NCBI GenBank assembly: GCA_025602915.1
Contig: JAHLJZ010000020.1
Coordinates: 124,001 to 188,000 of the forward strand
Length of the DNA: 64,000 nucleotides
DNA from: Paraphysoderma sedebokerense
Taxonomy: Eukaryota; Blastocladiomycota; Physodermatomycetes; Physodermatales; Physodermataceae
Direction of reading: 5' to 3'
Below, in pieces: positions 34,925 to 46,436 of this stretch. Position 1 is the first letter of the stretch; the number at the start of each line of letters is the position of its first letter. Made by a program: the position numbers and the translations under genes. The notes under the pieces are model-generated. The model was not told where the DNA came from. It made no database searches and worked only from the letters and a program-made list of their open reading frames with translations.

Positions 34925-37444
34925 ATGACGATTGAAACAACCGTTACACCTATTCTGAATAGGCTGTCTCTCGCAAACGATGATAACATTGATTCCAATC
35001 GGCCTCGACTTACGATTCTGTACGGATCGCAAACCGGTACCGCTCAAGATGTCGCGGAACGACTAGCAAGAGAATCTAAGAATAGACATTTCAGCGTTAA
35101 ATTAAGCGCAATGGATGATTTCTCATTTGTATGCACAATAATTTACTTAATATTGCACCGCTGGACCAATCCTTATCCTGCAGCCAACTGCGATTACTAA
35201 CATTAACCTCCTCTGTCTTGAAAGAATGATTTAGCCAATGTATCCGTTGTTATCTTTATTTGCTCAACCACGGGCCAAGGAGAAGAGCCTGACAACATGA
35301 AGGTACAGAAGCGAAACATTCGTAGCCGATGAACAGGTATTAAAGATTGTTCATTCCTCAAATAGAAATTCTGGCGATTACTCCTGCGGAAAAATTTGCC
35401 TGGTAACATATTGTCTCACTTGGAATACACAATTTTCGGTTTAGGCGATTCCTCATATGAAAAGTATGCCCATTACCGTCTATGCATATGTTTTGCGGTA
35501 TTGCTATTATTTCTCTTTCTGACATTTCTCTGATATAGATTCAATTTCCCCGCCCGAAAGCTGCATAAGAGGTTGAGCCAGCTCGGCGCCCGCCAATTTT
35601 ATCCTAGGGGAGAAGGTGATGATCAACATTACCTCGGGTAAGTCATATACTTGTATTTCTTTGATCTAATAGATATTGACATAAGTTATTTGGTACCTTA
35701 GAGTTGATGGAACACTAGACCCATGGCTCAAAGGCCTATGGGGACTTCTGCTAAGTCGATTTCCCCTTCAAGAGGGAAGGGAGTCAGTACCAGATGACAT
35801 ATTATATCCTTTTCAGACCATTTGAAGTGTTCAAATCTATTTCTAAATGTCGGAAGACCTTGACTTTTTCGCACCCCATCTCCACGATTCATTTGGACGC
35901 TTTCCAAAGAAGTCTCAAAAACCCCTTCATTCACTCCGTCGAGTCCACCTGTGCCGAAGGGAATGGTCGCAGGCAAACTTATCAGGAATAGCAGAATAAC
36001 AGCACCGAATCATTTTCAAGACACAAGGCATATTGAGATAGAAGTAGACGAAAATTTCAAATACAATGCAGGCGATGTGTTATGTATTCAGCCGCAGAAT
36101 TTGGAAGAGGAGGTTGATGAATTAATCGAGTATTTAGGATGGAAAGAGCATGCATGTACCGTATACGAGTTTACCCAAACCGACCCCGGTTCGTTAAGTC
36201 ATTTATACGCCCTTGCTTATTCGATCTGACCAATAATTTCTCCATTCAGATTACCCGTTACCTTATTATTTGCAGTATCCTACCACTTTGCGTGACATCC
36301 TTCTATATCATCTCGACATAAATGCAAAGCCGCGGCGATATTTCTTTTCACTCCTTTCACATTTCACCGACAACAATCAACATAAATATAAATTAAAGGA
36401 GTTTGCCTCCGCTGAAGGACAGGAGGATCTTTACGAATATTGTTACCGGCCGCGACGTACTACAATTGAGATTTTAAAAGATTTCATTGGGCTCAAAATT
36501 CCAAAAGAATATATCTTTGATTTATTTAAAGACCTGAAGGAGAGGCAATTTTCCATTGCCAGTTCACTCAAGGTATTGATTCACTGCTCTCGTATGGGTG
36601 CCCTTTCAGCCTCTAACGTTGATTTTAGATGCACCCTCGTCGAATACACTTGACTGTAGCAATTGTTAAGTATAAAACGAAGATGTTTACCCCAAGAACA
36701 GGGGTGTGTACGAAATGGCTCGCACAAGTTTCTGGTGTGTCCTTTTGCCCCCGTTTTACATTTATATACATCACTAATAACCAATGAATGGTGGGTAGAG
36801 GAATCCAACCAGCTTGTCCCTATTAAGGTGACTAAAGGTGTTTTTAAGGCACCTCCTCCTCGTGTTCCTCTTATTTGTATTGGTCCCGGAACTGGTATTG
36901 CCCCGATGAAAAGTTTCATTGAGGAGAGAGTAAAAGGCAATGCTTCTGGTGTGTATTCCCATTTCCCTCTAAGTGTTTTCGTAAACTGATATCTAAATGC
37001 TACAAATTATATGTTTGCAGAGACGATATTATTTTTCGGCTGTCGATCATCCTTTAAAGATTATTATTACAAAGAAGATTTAGAAAGCTATGCCGCCAGT
37101 GAAAGATTGCGACTTTTCACGGCCTTTTCAAGAGATCAAGTGGCAAAAATATATGTCCAACATCGCATTAAGGAGCAATCAAAGTTACTATGGCAGATTC
37201 TCAATGAAAAAGGTGGCGTGGTTATGTTAAGCGGGTAAGTTGTCACTGAACTGTAATTCCTTTTAAGTGGCTCACTTATAATTGCCTATTCATTCAAAGG
37301 AATGCGAACAAGATGCCAACAGATGTTAAGGAAGCATTTTTGCATGTATTCGAAAAAGAAGGCGGCATGACGAGAGAACAAGCAGAGTTGTATTTCAAGC
37401 AATTGAAAGTAAGCAAAAGGTGGCAAGAGGAGGTGTGGTTTTAG
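34925..37444 (+). CDS. TAH18: NADPH-dependent diflavin oxidoreductase TAH18/NDOR1
   Basis: Passes electrons from NADPH through FAD and FMN to DRE2/anamorsin in cytosolic Fe-S cluster assembly. Exons: 34925-35128, 35225-35302, 35366-35463, 35539-35637, 35702-35803, 35875-36188, 36250-36572, 36629-36734, 36799-36948, 37021-37234, 37300-37444; 610 residues, close to yeast (623). Flavodoxin: LYGSQTGTAQDVAE, CSTTGQGEEPDNM, GLGDSSYEK; FAD part: RITAPNHFQDTRH, RQFSIASSL, GVCTKWLA; NADPH part: PLICIGPGTGIAPMKSFIEER, FFGCRSS, typical VWF end. Exons 5 and 6 are joined only by a non-GT-AG intron (see 35804-35874), which restores the frame exactly. Intron 6 uses GTTCGT. Confidence 0.95.
35804..35874 (+). 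other. AT-AC intron of the U12 (minor spliceosome) type in TAH18
   Basis: 71-nt intron beginning ATATCCTTTT, a full match to the U12 donor consensus, and ending CAC. CCTTGAC at 35858-35864 matches the U12 branch-site consensus; its A at 35863 is 11 nt from the 3' end, in the normal 10-15 nt range. Removing it joins phase 2 to a single completing base and reads through PDDIFPSPRF into the FAD domain. The frame before the intron runs into a stop a few codons later, and no GT-AG pair gives an open join that keeps the conserved PDD motif. Confidence 0.88.
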
Positions 37445-39314: not shown

Positions 39315-42300
39315 TTAAGCAAAAATCTCCTGGCCCCTCAACAACATATCTCTTATTTTCCTCGATAACATCTGAACGAAACTACTTCTTGAACGATACG
39401 AGATCCCGACATTTTCCTTGGTCTATTGAAATAAACAAAAATCTTTAGATTTCTCGGACAGAAAACAATAAACCAGGGGGAAAGGGCCATACCAATTCGA
39501 TTAATCCAACTTTTTTCAGCATCGGTATCACGACTTGCACTGCATCAGACCGGATAGTTTCGACATCTTCTGATCCCGGTTGGAAGAGCTTATTCCAAGC
39601 CGCTGTGGTGTTCGACACTCGTTTCCCTCCGCGAACTTTTGGCGCTTCAAAAGAGTGACTTTCGCGACTTGATGGGTTGTATTTGCCGAGATAGAAATCA
39701 AGGTGTCGAAACAATAATATCAGACCAGCTTCAATAATAACTATGTTGTTGTGTTAGTATAAACAATACATATATTCAAATCGGGTTCAAGAAAGACTTA
39801 CATAAAGAGGAACCCAATTCCCGCGCCAAATCAATTTGAGTCTTCTTGAGCTCTTTCAAAGCAAGCTGCTGACGTTGAATATAAGACAATCCTTCCAACA
39901 CCTCATCACTCCACTGAGAATGGGCCTACAGCAAGAGAATGGATATATGTTCAATAACCGCCTACTCATTGCACGGCGCATTACTGAGTGAGAAGAAAGA
40001 ACAAACCAAAATGTCCCTAATATCCTCAATCGACAAAGTTTCCACATGTTGCAAACGATAAGAAACGTTCTTTTGCTTAGAAAGTAGGTCCGTGACAGCC
40101 TGAATGTTGTCTTTAAGGTACACAACAAGTAACCCCAGTGACGGCGGATTCGATGTGCCGGATATTAAATGGTAGTCGCCATCTTTAGCTGCTGCCAAGC
40201 TCCAAACGAAGACCGGTTGAAAAATGGCGGTATCTATCGAATTTGAACACTGGTCAACATATATACGACGCGGCACGATTGGGGCGAAAATAAACTCACT
40301 GGTTTCACCTGACCCTTCTGTGACTGTCTGACAGTACGATAGCACATTCCTGCAAATTCCGTGGACATAATATTGTGCTTCGGCTTGTAACATTGACACA
40401 GTTGATAACCCGCCTGAAAGCAAGTTAGATACGTCGCAGAATGTATGATGTCAGATGAAGTTGAGAACAAGTCTTACCAGCCGAGATAGTTTCCGCCTGC
40501 AGTTTCTCCGCCTCCGTTGTGGGAGCAAGCGATTTCCACCATGAGTCTCTCACCGAATACTTTGAGAACAGTAAGAGAAGTAAATTATGAAACGATCCAA
40601 TGGAGGTGCCAATATTCTGCGCAAGTTGTCATATCAGAGATTGTTTTGTGCAGGTTGCTATTTCAGATTGAAAATATTTACCATGTCTTTTAGAATAGCC
40701 CGGTTTCCGGACAAGAATGAGAATATTGAGGTGACCAGCTGAAGCTCCGTCAAACCTGATATGGTAACCTTCGGAACTCTATCTTTAAGAATTGTAACTA
40801 AAGTCTCCGAATGAGCGATGACGAAGCTCGAAAGCTAGAGGATGAATACAAAAAGTCAGATATCGTATAACAGTTAGCGGAAAAACGTGACAGCTCGTAC
40901 CCGTTTAGTAGCAGTGGCATTGTCACGACCAGTGGACGACAGTATTCCAACTAGCAACTGCAGCGCAGGTGTTAACAATTGATGGTACCTCTGGGTTGCT
41001 GGCGGTAAAAACCCTTCATAGTCGACTAAAGAAAAGCAACGTCACTACAAGTTAGAATATTTCACGCAGAGAGCAGACATACCTTGCATGGCATTGCCCT
41101 CCAAATCTGGCCTCACATCCAAGAACTCACAATCAGCTAGACATTCAACTACTCCCGCTTCCAACATATTAACAGCCCCGTCGCGACGTTGAGAGATTTG
41201 AACAAACAAAGCTATCATTGCTTCATAAATGTACATATCATTGATAGCTTCAATCTCTGCAAAATGGAGAATAGGTATGTTTAATACGAACCACCAAAAA
41301 GAGAAGCCCGTGGCAGTCAATTTAAATTCACTCACCCGGATCCTCAACAGTCACGGCCTCAATTAAATTCGCATTCATCTTCCTCAGGACACCGATCCAA
41401 TGGTTCAGATAATTCTTTCTCACCATAAACTCTACCACCCAATTCACTTTTTCCGTTTTGATCATCTGACACAATTTATCCAACAGAGTGAAAGATACAG
41501 TCTTCCAAACATCCATTCCGTCGCAAGCGTCTCGACAAATAATTTCTAGTAATTGCTCCCCTCCAACGTTTCGAATGATGGAGACATTTCCGACTTGTAA
41601 TGCGAGTAACTGTGAAGCTTGGGGAACAATGGATACGAATGAATCGGCTTGATTTGCCATTTGAGTTTCTGCGATAGAAGTAACATGCGGTGCTGTAGTC
41701 GAGGGAGAAGTGTATTGAAGGTAATTGTGTAAGAAAGTGTAAAGATTACCACGGAGGATGAGCGACGACGAGGGTTCAATGATAGCATCGATAACGTAAC
41801 GTAAGATAGAATGCAAAGTATCCGGAGCAAGGTTCACATTGTTTGTCCAAGTTTCATCTGGATTGAGAACCTGAGGACCGACTTTATTTGCCGAATCTTC
41901 TCGTAATTTCGTAATGAGGGCAAGAGCCACATGAACCAATTCTTCCTTGACCAAAATGTGAAGACTATCATTCGACAAAGCAGGGACGATGCTTGTCAAG
42001 AGATTAGACATCAAAGGTTCCCGATAATCGTCTCCAACCAATTCAAAACAATTTGCCAATGTGACTCCGACAACCTGACCCCATGCCTGGATGCAGCGAG
42101 TTTGAGCTTGAATAATCTCGATTAACCGATTTTGGCTGATAACGTATTCTAAATACGATATGATTTCGGATTTGATTATTTCTCGTTGCTGGGGGGTGGC
42201 AATAGAACCTTGTCTTTCCAAATTCCGTTGATGTGAAAGTAAAACTTCATACACCGCGCGTACATCATAGATTACACAATGCGTTTCTACTCGGTGCTGA

Positions 42301-45300
42301 CATCCCGAGAGAGATACATGGGAGAAATAAACGGACTTTGGTGGTTGAACGGGAGGAAGAAGAGAGTGAATTTGTAGAAAGTCAGATAATAATTCTTGCA
42401 TTCTCATTAGAGACTGTTCCAACTGCCTTTGAGAACCGAGAGCTTGATTCTGAATCATATCCATTTCATCTAAAATATTCGTGGAGGTTGGAATGGTTAT
42501 GTTGTTTGTACTATAAAGAAGGTCCAACATCCGTTGTACATAACTTCGTTGTCCATTGATAGCTGTGATTCGAAGTTCTACAGCCAACATCCGTAATAAC
42601 CAGTTTCGCTGATGTAAAAAGGAAACCAAATCTGAAAACTCATTGGTGTCTGTGAAAACGTGGCTATGCATTGACTGGAAATGACTGTAAATGAAATCAA
42701 TTCTGGCGTGTCGTAAATATCGTAGGGTGGCAGAAAAAGTATTCCTGTCTGAAGCTAAAATGTACATAAGGTGATAACATTTTTCTGCTACGAGTGGATC
42801 ACCTTGATAAAACGGCACAGCGGCACTATCTTCTTCTTGGTCGTACTTGACACCAGTGTTCAACAATTTTGTGAGAATTTGCAGGCAAGAGAAGTTATCG
42901 GTAGATGCTTCGACTGGAATTTGGATTTGAGACGGAGGTATGCGCATATCGAATCCCAAGAAGAAATGAGCGACCGTGGGCGGGAGCCGGTTTGAACGAA
43001 GATTTCGAAGAAACATATCAACGATAGCAGAACGAACAGAACCGTGTAGGGCATATTGATTCAAATATTTTTCATCCATGTCTAACAATGACGAACCAGC
43101 GTGAAGTAATTTCTGTAACGCGTAATCGTCGGCTCCAGCTTCTCGAAGTGTCATATCTTCTGATATTTCGTCTTGATCCAATTTATCCAAAAATCCATGC
43201 ATAATCTGATTCGAGTACTCTGAAGACTCAAGCAAATGCACAAGACGATTACCTCCTGCGTCCGAATCCTTTCCGAAATACGATGAAAGCGACAAATATG
43301 ATAGAATTTTAACAGAAAGCAATGGGATTTCGGGTTCTCCTATCACACTAATGTATCGAGCAATCTGAATAACGACGTAATTACGGTACAGAAGGAGTTG
43401 ATCTATATGGCTGATATTTGGTGGTATCGAGACTTGAAGAGAGCCATTGGCAAATTCAGCCAAACTGGGCAACAGAAAGTCGATGAATAGATTTTGTAAT
43501 TTCATGATACGGAATAATAATCTTTGTGCCAGCAATACCGATTTTGTAAGAAAAGGATGATCGGATAGATTGACGGGATTATCATTCGTTAACTCTAAAC
43601 CGTAATGAAATATTTTAAGAACGGTCTCCAACATTTTTGAACCGCTCAACATTCTGGTCATAACTTCAAACCCCGGATGTAAGGTCATTGCCTGCAGGTT
43701 GGCACCAGCCTTAACTGAGGGCGGTGTCCCGGGTACGTTGGAAGATCGCCCGTCTGAGCCCATCATCGTTAAAGATCCACTTTCATCAACCACTAATTTT
43801 GACAAATCAAATGTAATTAGACACTTCTCAAATAACTTTAAACATTCGCTAATGATTCTCCATTTTTCTTCGGGGAATAAATATCCTCTGCCGTCGGCTT
43901 TCAGGAAAACACTATCAATCACGAAATCGATATAAGGTTTCACACCTGGAGTGCGATATCCAGAGCCGAGATTGTCAGGAACTGAAGAAGACCGAAGAAA
44001 CTGAAATTCTGGGGACTTCGGAATGTGAATGAGAGAGTTGAGTAAATGAATGAAGCCTAATGTTTCAGGATACGTTTCGTTTCTCGATTCCAATTCTTCC
44101 AAATCTGCTCTGATACTACCTGTGTTCGACATCCCATGCGGTAGTCCAATCGTTCCACTCTGAAGAGGACGCTGCAATGAACCGGATGTTTGCAAATACC
44201 CGTGTTGTGATCGGACAGTGGGGACAATCTGAACTTGCTCCATATAAGACCAGACGGCAAGGGCGATAGACGTGGTATCGTCGGAAGAGGCGAAAGCCGC
44301 AATGGTATCGAGAAGAGCCGCTTTTAATGTAACCGGGACTTGGCATGTAAGGAGGGAGAATAGAGTGTAAAGTGTTTCGAAACTTGGGTTTTCGTAGATA
44401 GCGGCACGAGCGATGGGGGAATGAAAGACGACCTGGCGAAGTAATCGAAGGAGCGAAGTCAAGATTTCTGCTTCCATCGGTTCCATATATTCGTCCGCCA
44501 CACCAACAGTACCTCGTCGTCCCGGTAATTCTTGAAATAAGGCGACATAATGCTTTAAGGAATCAAAAATTGTATTCCATGTCAATGCAGCTGCGCCATG
44601 GAAGCCGCCTGTCACGGGAGATGACGAGAGGTAGTCGAATGCGGATTGAGCGGCCTGAGGTCCGGTAGCAAGCGCGGCAAGCATATTGTAGTATGCCTTT
44701 TTGCAAGACTTGGTTCTGACATCAGCAGCCCACCTCACGAAAAGAAACATTTTGCCGTCTCTTGGATGCCAAAATTGTATGGCTAATTTTGGGCTGTCAT
44801 AGCACAAGACGGCAATTAGATAAAGTAACGTTTCGAAGTCATGTCGGGGAGCCGTTGTTGGCGTATGTGATGGGGGAAAAATCGGAGGGCGAGATAACGA
44901 AGCTTGTTGATGTTGAAAAACGATGAATGCGTCTTCTTCTTTTGATTTTAAGTCGCGAACGATAAGATTCATGCGATTGATGAAGCCAAAGATGATATGG
45001 GATGTTTGATTCAGGATGTAAAATTCCGTCTTGAAATCAATACTTTCTTTAGCGAATTCGGATAAATCTATGATATTAGAGGTCTGATTCTCAGTAACGT
45101 TGCCACCCAATGGGTTGTTGGCGGACGAGGTACTCGATTCGGTGATAGTTTTTGTTGAAGCAAGGACATCCCGACTCTCAGCATTTTGCTTTACTGCGGT
45201 TACCACATGTATCAAATACTTGAAAGCATCTTCGTTGATGGCTTTTCGAGCTAAATTTTCAATAGTAGCTACAGTCACCCCTACGTTTTGAACGGTACTG

Positions 45301-46436
45301 TTTTTCTCTAAAGCCTCACTCAAAAACAAAGACCACTGTAACATTGACACCGCTCGGAGTCCTTGTCCTTTCCAGGATGATTGAAATATTTCCTTTTGAA
45401 ATTTGTCGATAAAAGCATGATCAGAATATATCGAGCCGGTCGAGTCGGCGATACCGAAAGAAAGATGATGATCGGGGGAAGTATCAAGGGAACACAGCAA
45501 CGCATATAGTAAATAAATGGTGGTAGGATCTGTCGATTCTGCTTCCATCACATTCTTTCCTAACCCAAGTAATTCTTCGCCACTCAACTGTAAATGATAC
45601 GATATCCCAATCAATATCAAAGCCAACATTTTTCTTTGCTTCGTCAGAGATTCGATTCGTTCAGTATTAATTTGTTCTCCGATCATGGTGGAGGGATTCG
45701 GGCCGGCAATAGAAGCCGACATGTTTGCAACATTTAAAGCTGGCATACTCTCTTTTAAACTCAAAATATTCTTCTTCAATTTTTCAATCGTATTCACAAT
45801 CTTGGTCACGTAAGTGATATTGCCAACGGCAGATTGCGATTGCGATTTGATCAAAGAATCCATATACTTTGCAAAAAATTCTTTTACTTCATCGTCCGCG
45901 GCTTCAATCATTCCTGTTATGATGCTATCCAAACAGGCTAGCAGGTGTATTCGTTCAGCATGATAGATAGAAACGGCGACCTCGATTGTTTCTCGACCGA
46001 ATCGGGCTTTCAAACTTTTGCCCACATGAATCAAAGCTGCAGCTTTTTCTTCATGAATATCAAGGTAGTCTGATAACATACAAGCCGCTTGACGAAAAGC
46101 AGGGGTAACATTGTATTGCTGTCCGTTTATCGTGACGGCACCTGTAAACAAGAGTTGTTCATAAGTTAATACAAACAAGACGTTCAGGTTGATTTCGATC
46201 AAATCGCCACAATAATAAATAGCACTCATACCACCATCAATCAATGTTTTTCTCTTTTGAGCATCTTTAGGAGCTTCGTCCAATAATGTCAAGAATTCGT
46301 CCCTCCTCAGTTCCAATTCATGCATCATCTGTTTGACCGTCTGCGAGTTTTGATCGAGCTGACATGATTCTAAAATGAGGGTATTGAGAGGTTCGAACAC
46401 CGGATAGTAGAATTCTATATTTGGGGTGGACGACAT
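39315..46436 (-). CDS. NUP192: Nucleoporin NUP192/NUP205, inner ring of the nuclear pore
   Basis: Large alpha-solenoid scaffold nucleoporin. Exon 1 is 46436-41336 (5,101 nt, 1,700 codons); then 41256-41083, 41025-40901, 40834-40682, 40616-40478, 40413-40007, 39925-39802, 39740-39493 and 39422-39315; 2,192 residues, nearer NUP205 (about 2,000) than yeast NUP192 (about 1,680). Recognised by its size, its all-helical composition and an N-terminal region fitting the NUP205 family (QLDQNSQTVKQMMHELELRRDEF, FVLTYEQLLFTGAV). Near the C-terminal end of exon 1 is a stretch beginning ANCFELVGDDYREPLMSNLL. All eight introns lie in the last quarter of the coding sequence, unlike the dense introns of neighbours. 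Confidence 0.88.

Follow-up and report, generated by a model that had tools for sequence, protein, structure and literature searches.

The DNA analysed here, referred to below as the window, is a stretch of 64,000 nucleotides from Paraphysoderma sedebokerense, which infects algae; it spans positions 124001-188000 of contig C20 (contigs are given as C and a number) in an assembly of 27.29 Mb and 195 contigs that was also scanned as a whole. The window contains a gene for a NADPH-dependent diflavin oxidoreductase of the TAH18/NDOR1 type, the closest relatives of which in protein comparisons are TAH18/NDOR1-type proteins. The gene and the elements of its fifth intron are listed here.

34925..37444, plus strand: TAH18/NDOR1-type NADPH-dependent diflavin oxidoreductase gene, 11 exons, 610 aa (splicing by script and by eye; closest relatives)
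35804..35874, plus strand: predicted U12-type AT-AC intron 5, 71 nt, phase 2 (sequence letters; linker restored)
35804..35813, plus strand: predicted 5' splice site ATATCCTTTT (sequence letters)
35858..35864, plus strand: predicted branch site CCTTGAC (sequence letters; pairing with the U12 candidate)
35873..35874, plus strand: predicted 3' splice site AC, intron end CGCAC (sequence letters)

Splicing of the window sequence gave ten introns, nine of them GT-AG and the fifth AT-AC, and their removal yields the 610-aa protein; if intron 5 is retained, the reading frame hits a stop eight codons past the junction. The donor ATATCCTTTT fits the U12-type form (A/G)TATCCTT, the branch motif is near TCCTTRAC and lies a short distance from the 3' end, and the AT-AC ends together with the restored frame are likewise those of a U12-type intron. 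In its context, ACCTTGAC, the branch motif is one letter of eight off TCCTTRAC, being preceded by A where T is usual; the distance from the A at 35863 to the last base is 11 nt, with 10 nt following the motif. The calculated duplex between CCTTGAC and the branch-pairing stretch of the U12 candidate described below has an energy of −6.7 kcal/mol. An earlier note on this DNA had proposed a U12-type AT-AC intron of 71 nt with a ATATCCTTTT start, CCTTGAC, a branch distance of 11 nt and a CAC end, within a TAH18 gene with a 610-residue product in an early-diverging fungus. The letters are as it described them; the signals, linker alignment and frame accord with the proposed class, the splicing and relatives with the gene and its product, and the taxonomy (Blastocladiomycota, Physodermatales) with the proposed host.

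In an alignment with 20 further TAH18 proteins and the public model P0001, the junction peptide, DIFPSPRF, falls in line with the linker of these 20. This linker is variable; a segment alignable at the junction, often D-V-L-P-P-P-x-F/Y, was present in 20 of 20 relatives, and its last position was F or Y in 19 of the 20. Single-intron alternatives of at least 26 nt, with donors at 35712-35899 and acceptors up to 35999, comprised 45 stop-free solutions (27 AT-AC, 10 GC-AG and 8 GT-AG). All 18 of the GT-AG and GC-AG solutions delete the PSPRF segment of the linker; from the 27 AT-AC solutions, the four inspected were those starting ATATCC. Intron 5 is very probably real, judging from the sequence, and we put at about 0.94 the probability that TAH18 of P. 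sedebokerense carries, at 35804-35874, a spliceosomal AT-AC intron of the minor class (U12-type). No paper on NDOR1 and a minor intron was found in a literature search. The donor form (A/G)TATCCTT occurs at two further places in the window, 55275 and 59797; both were set aside, as the scan used gave no TCCTTRAC branch site there, and an Rfam scan of the window at the gathering score returned zero matches.

AT-AC introns of the U2 type exist, and intron 5 might be one of these, excised by the major spliceosome. A table in PMC2846911 includes a column for other AT-AC introns. Here, however, the donor and branch site are those of the U12 class and the genome has parts of a minor spliceosome, and we consider removal by the major spliceosome very unlikely. 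A public protein of P. sedebokerense, BKA69DRAFT_1070073, is identical to our TAH18 product except in the linker stretch and past the point where its model exits the gene. The corresponding segment was reconstructed as follows.

35787..35912, plus strand: segment apparently removed by public model P0001 as two GT-AG introns, 35787-35827 and 35829-35912 (reconstructed from the protein)

If the major spliceosome acts on the stretch as P0001 has it, the deposited protein is the product, and among 210 ways of reaching the public protein with two introns in a limited range, one has GT-AG ends on both (35787-35827 and 35829-35912, separated by a 1-nt exon). Yet that arrangement calls for an exon of 1 nt and an intron of 41 nt and shortens the linker by 18 residues, and further on P0001 continues into intron 9, ending within window positions 36949-37020 and losing about 119 C-terminal residues. 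The public model of a further gene, ELP4, also fails at an AT-AC site, which came from a motif search.

C1:365513-365591 (locus L004, 1501-1579): second clear candidate AT-AC minor intron, in ELP4

Removal of this candidate gives DDVLGGGLP, whereas the public ELP4 model has DDILLNRGGLP, and LGGG(L/I) occurs without an insert in eight of eight aligned ELP4 relatives; the two versions differ only here and in 17 near-C-terminal residues that the public model drops. Both of the public models of AT-AC genes that were checked, TAH18 and ELP4, fail at the intron. We judge the double intron at 35787..35912 to be an annotation artefact and regard its excision by the major spliceosome as more improbable still than a U2-type AT-AC intron. 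Stops in the unspliced frame could also signify a decaying or mis-assembled TAH18 copy in which the segment is no intron at all, but elsewhere the gene shows no damage over its 610 aa and has nine ordinary introns, and of the three alternatives to a minor-class intron this one appears the most remote.

The genome was searched for similar introns with a strict AT-AC pattern, ATATCCTTN{30,60}CCTTRACN{6,22}AC, with the reversed pattern as the control, and with a strict GT-AG minor-type pattern. The AT-AC pattern gave 37 rows versus 9 for the reversed control, and the GT-AG pattern 32 versus 0; counted by hand, these rows held 32 AT-AC donors (31 distinct) and 27 GT-AG donors (24 distinct), with ATATCCTTTT opening 25 of the 31 distinct AT-AC candidates. 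Given the nine control rows, some of the AT-AC rows are due to chance, and because the motif is strict, the actual number of introns may be larger. The motif is in excess genome-wide while single rows may be chance, so it is the gene context that decides for TAH18 intron 5. Fetched loci covered 52 of the 55 distinct candidates and were evaluated with the acceptor held 8-17 nt past the branch motif. The frame was open at the junction in 42 of the 52, with phases 0, 1 and 2 in 7, 25 and 10 candidates, respectively (the longest open frame being taken), which is the same order, 1>2>0, as that given for minor introns in the parts of PMC10639083 considered here. Peptides spliced from 40 of these 42 were scanned against Pfam, a domain being counted if it scored above the cut-off and crossed the junction. 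This was the case in 15 of the 40 peptides: in 6 of 23 AT-AC peptides (ELP4, GBP-like GTPase, BRCT, VPS11, MCM and MIOS) and in 9 of 17 GT-AG peptides (SPT8, ThiF, Nup93, Der1, Cdc24, PI3/PI4 kinase, TMEM107, RabGAP and DUF3402), the Pfam scan giving no qualifying domain across the junction for the other 17 AT-AC peptides. Left uncounted were domains lying next to the junction (L005, L007), one that reached the junction but did not pass it (L055) and those that crossed it with a score below the cut-off (L009, L012, L015, L021, L042, L051 and the second intron of L063). At L063, two GT-AG minor-type candidate introns on the minus strand (C38:159520-159606 and C38:159896-159965) lie about 290 nt apart, seemingly in one DUF3402 gene.

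The earlier note had predicted that U11, U12, U4atac and U6atac RNAs would be encoded in the genome; Rfam searches yielded candidates for U12, U6atac and U4atac, and U11 was not found.

C3:68179-68340, minus strand: U12 snRNA candidate (Rfam 42.4 bits, E 5.3e-6, gathering 53)
C121:41260-41363 (locus L002, 1501-1604), minus strand: U6atac snRNA candidate (Rfam 39.8 bits, E 2.7e-7, gathering 33)
C14:305922-306044, plus strand: U4atac snRNA candidate (Rfam 32.9 bits, E 0.0076, gathering 53)

The U6atac candidate exceeds its gathering score and has a T run at its end. The U12 candidate scores below gathering (42.4 versus 53) and has GUAAGGA intact, and the U12 and U6atac models each matched none of 14 control genomes at E 0.001. 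The U4atac candidate lies outside the first cut of E 0.001 and below gathering (32.9 versus 53), and at E up to 10 its model matched 11 of the 14 control genomes, none of them over the cut-off. What speaks for this candidate is its predicted fit to U6atac. The two could form 11 consecutive pairs in stem II (one G-U) and seven in stem I (two G-U), and the duplex calculated for the U4atac 5' end with U6atac (22 × 25 nt) has an energy of −32.7 kcal/mol, which was equalled by none of 4000 window 25-mers and none of 5000 shuffles. Longer pieces of the two gave −41.6, equalled by 1 of 2000 shuffles, and pairing with the human U4atac and U6atac partners was weaker, at −27.4 and −28.3.

For U11, the Rfam model run over the whole genome gave no match at E 0.001 nor, with 39 of 2345 first-look candidates scored, at E up to 10. 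Of the 14 control genomes, 3 were matched by it at E 10. A U11 pattern, AAAAGGN{65,95}AATTTTTGG, gave nine rows versus two for the control, none of which was accepted as U11: one was rejected as the antisense of an intron donor on C6, and the other eight (two alike, so that seven loci were scanned) gave no U11 with Rfam at E up to 10. Proteins of the U11/U12 di-snRNP had candidates in the same genome.

C58: U11/U12-65K candidate (60%-identical middle segment and a C-terminal RRM match)
C13: U11/U12-25K candidate (top match the U11/U12 25-kDa chain)
C4:59782-60115 and C94:1265-1598: U11/U12-20K candidate (top match ZMAT5)

A 65K query pieced together by hand had structures of RNA-binding protein 40 (65K) as its top match, and the U11/U12-65K protein named in the earlier note thus has a match in the genome, on C58. 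A match on C87, 33% identical over the first RRM of the 65K query, was taken as another RRM protein, and human SCNM1 and SNRNP48 (48K), searched in one chimeric query, had no genome match. The 25K and 20K proteins are U11-bound, and with both of them present, a U11 RNA would be expected.

The U6atac candidate departs from the Rfam consensus in the box that would pair with the donor, having AAUCGAGAGA versus AAAGGAGAGA; in the Rfam alignment its positions 10-29 read CAAUCGAGAGAUGGUUAGCA versus GAAAGGAGAGAAGGUUAGCA. Its AAUCGA makes four of six pairs with the donor UCCUUU, short of full complementarity, and with AAUCGAGAGA instead of AAAGGAGAGA the two pairs at intron positions 6 and 7 cannot form. 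The usual U6atac 19-mer had no site in the genome with 0-2 mismatches; with three mismatches it gave 14 rows versus 20 for the reversed control, one of them the C121 locus. The other 13 were considered for a second U6atac, and in none of them did Rfam, at E up to 10, give a U6atac match. L082, one of the U11-pattern loci, matched U6atac with 17.6 bits (E 2.9) but was rejected by eye, having neither GAGAGA nor GGTTAGCA.

The oddity could reflect a fault in the assembly, a contig missing from it, or another copy that has diverged further. The fit between the two RNAs argues that the C121 locus is a real partner of U4atac. Tentatively, and with doubt prevailing, one may suppose a working minor spliceosome whose only U6atac lacks two of the six donor pairs while the introns of this fungus retain the standard ATATCCTT or GTATCCTT. 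Were this so, the donor would be chosen mainly by U11 and proteins and the U6atac helix at catalysis would be shorter, the opposite of what would be expected from the usual helix. The oddity is a natural test of how much pairing between U6atac and donor a minor spliceosome requires. A relaxed donor scan is uninformative about variation at donor positions 6-7, because most loci were fetched with the strict motif.

The steps of minor-class splicing are established from other organisms. The DNA of P. sedebokerense itself holds the signals, the restored protein, further candidate introns of both subtypes, the U12, U4atac and U6atac candidates and three di-snRNP proteins, and from these we infer splicing of intron 5, its branch adenosine and a U11 RNA in the genome. 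The U11/U12 di-snRNP would recognise ATATCCTTTT and CCTTGAC jointly, after which U4atac/U6atac and U5 would come in; U6atac would displace U11 at the donor while U12 kept the branch site, and the exons would then be ligated.

At the date of the report that speaks of minor snRNAs found in Chytridiomycota, that name could include relatives of P. sedebokerense. The report, PMC2846911 in the parts considered here, also describes introns of the same class outside Dikarya, AT-AC included, in Rhizopus oryzae and Phycomyces blakesleeanus, which belong to other fungal lineages and in which the introns were detected from ESTs. The earlier note had stated that minor spliceosomes are reported from some early-diverging fungi. 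According to the passages of PMC10639083 drawn on, minor introns are established in early-diverging fungi, among them Rhizophagus, Basidiobolus and Spizellomyces, and lack convincing support in Ascomycota and Basidiomycota. Rhizophagus irregularis and Basidiobolus meristosporus resemble P. sedebokerense as early-diverging fungi with minor introns, and Rhizophagus further in its animal- and plant-like consensus motifs, the phase order 1>2>0, and minor snRNAs and proteins (PMC10639083). Their counts of 205 and 249 are from annotated introns, whereas the P. sedebokerense count is from a strict motif, and P. sedebokerense differs from both in being a blastocladiomycete, in that U11 was not found and in the changed donor-pairing box of U6atac. 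Lichtheimia corymbifera is likewise described (in the relevant part of PMC4133162) as having altered minor snRNAs, one of them not found in the assembly. In that fungus U4atac is missing and U6atac has diverged in its second half, whereas in P. sedebokerense it is the donor-pairing box that is changed and U11 that was not found. Blastoclad and Allomyces are absent from the main text of PMC10639083, the supplements of which may list the group, and the portions of PMC7138796 and PMC3488318 considered report no minor introns in Blastocladiomycota.

We regard the result as sound and moderately interesting: a known kind of system in a lineage, Blastocladiomycota, for which our searches among open-licence PMC papers brought up no earlier report of minor introns. 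Blastocladiomycota gain candidate minor introns by the dozens together with minor-spliceosome parts, and a blind spot of annotation for AT-AC introns is exposed. Surveys can miss such introns because it is annotated introns that are classified, as in the survey of PMC10639083 according to its relevant passages, and two of two public models of AT-AC genes mishandle the intron.

The pattern searches also returned identical-looking matches on the same contig (C83 17703/31514, C29 177369/189914, C23 67460/90965, C4 443178/474717 and C47 34402/46642), all such pairs being 12-32 kb apart, a pattern suggestive of large tandem duplications or of haplotypes that the assembly left unmerged; the equal scores of the 20K matches on C4 and C94 are a further sign of duplicated or unmerged sequence. 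In the window, TAH18, with ten introns in 2.5 kb, has as its neighbour a Nup192/205-type nucleoporin of 1702 aa (41328-46436, minus strand) in a single uninterrupted frame.
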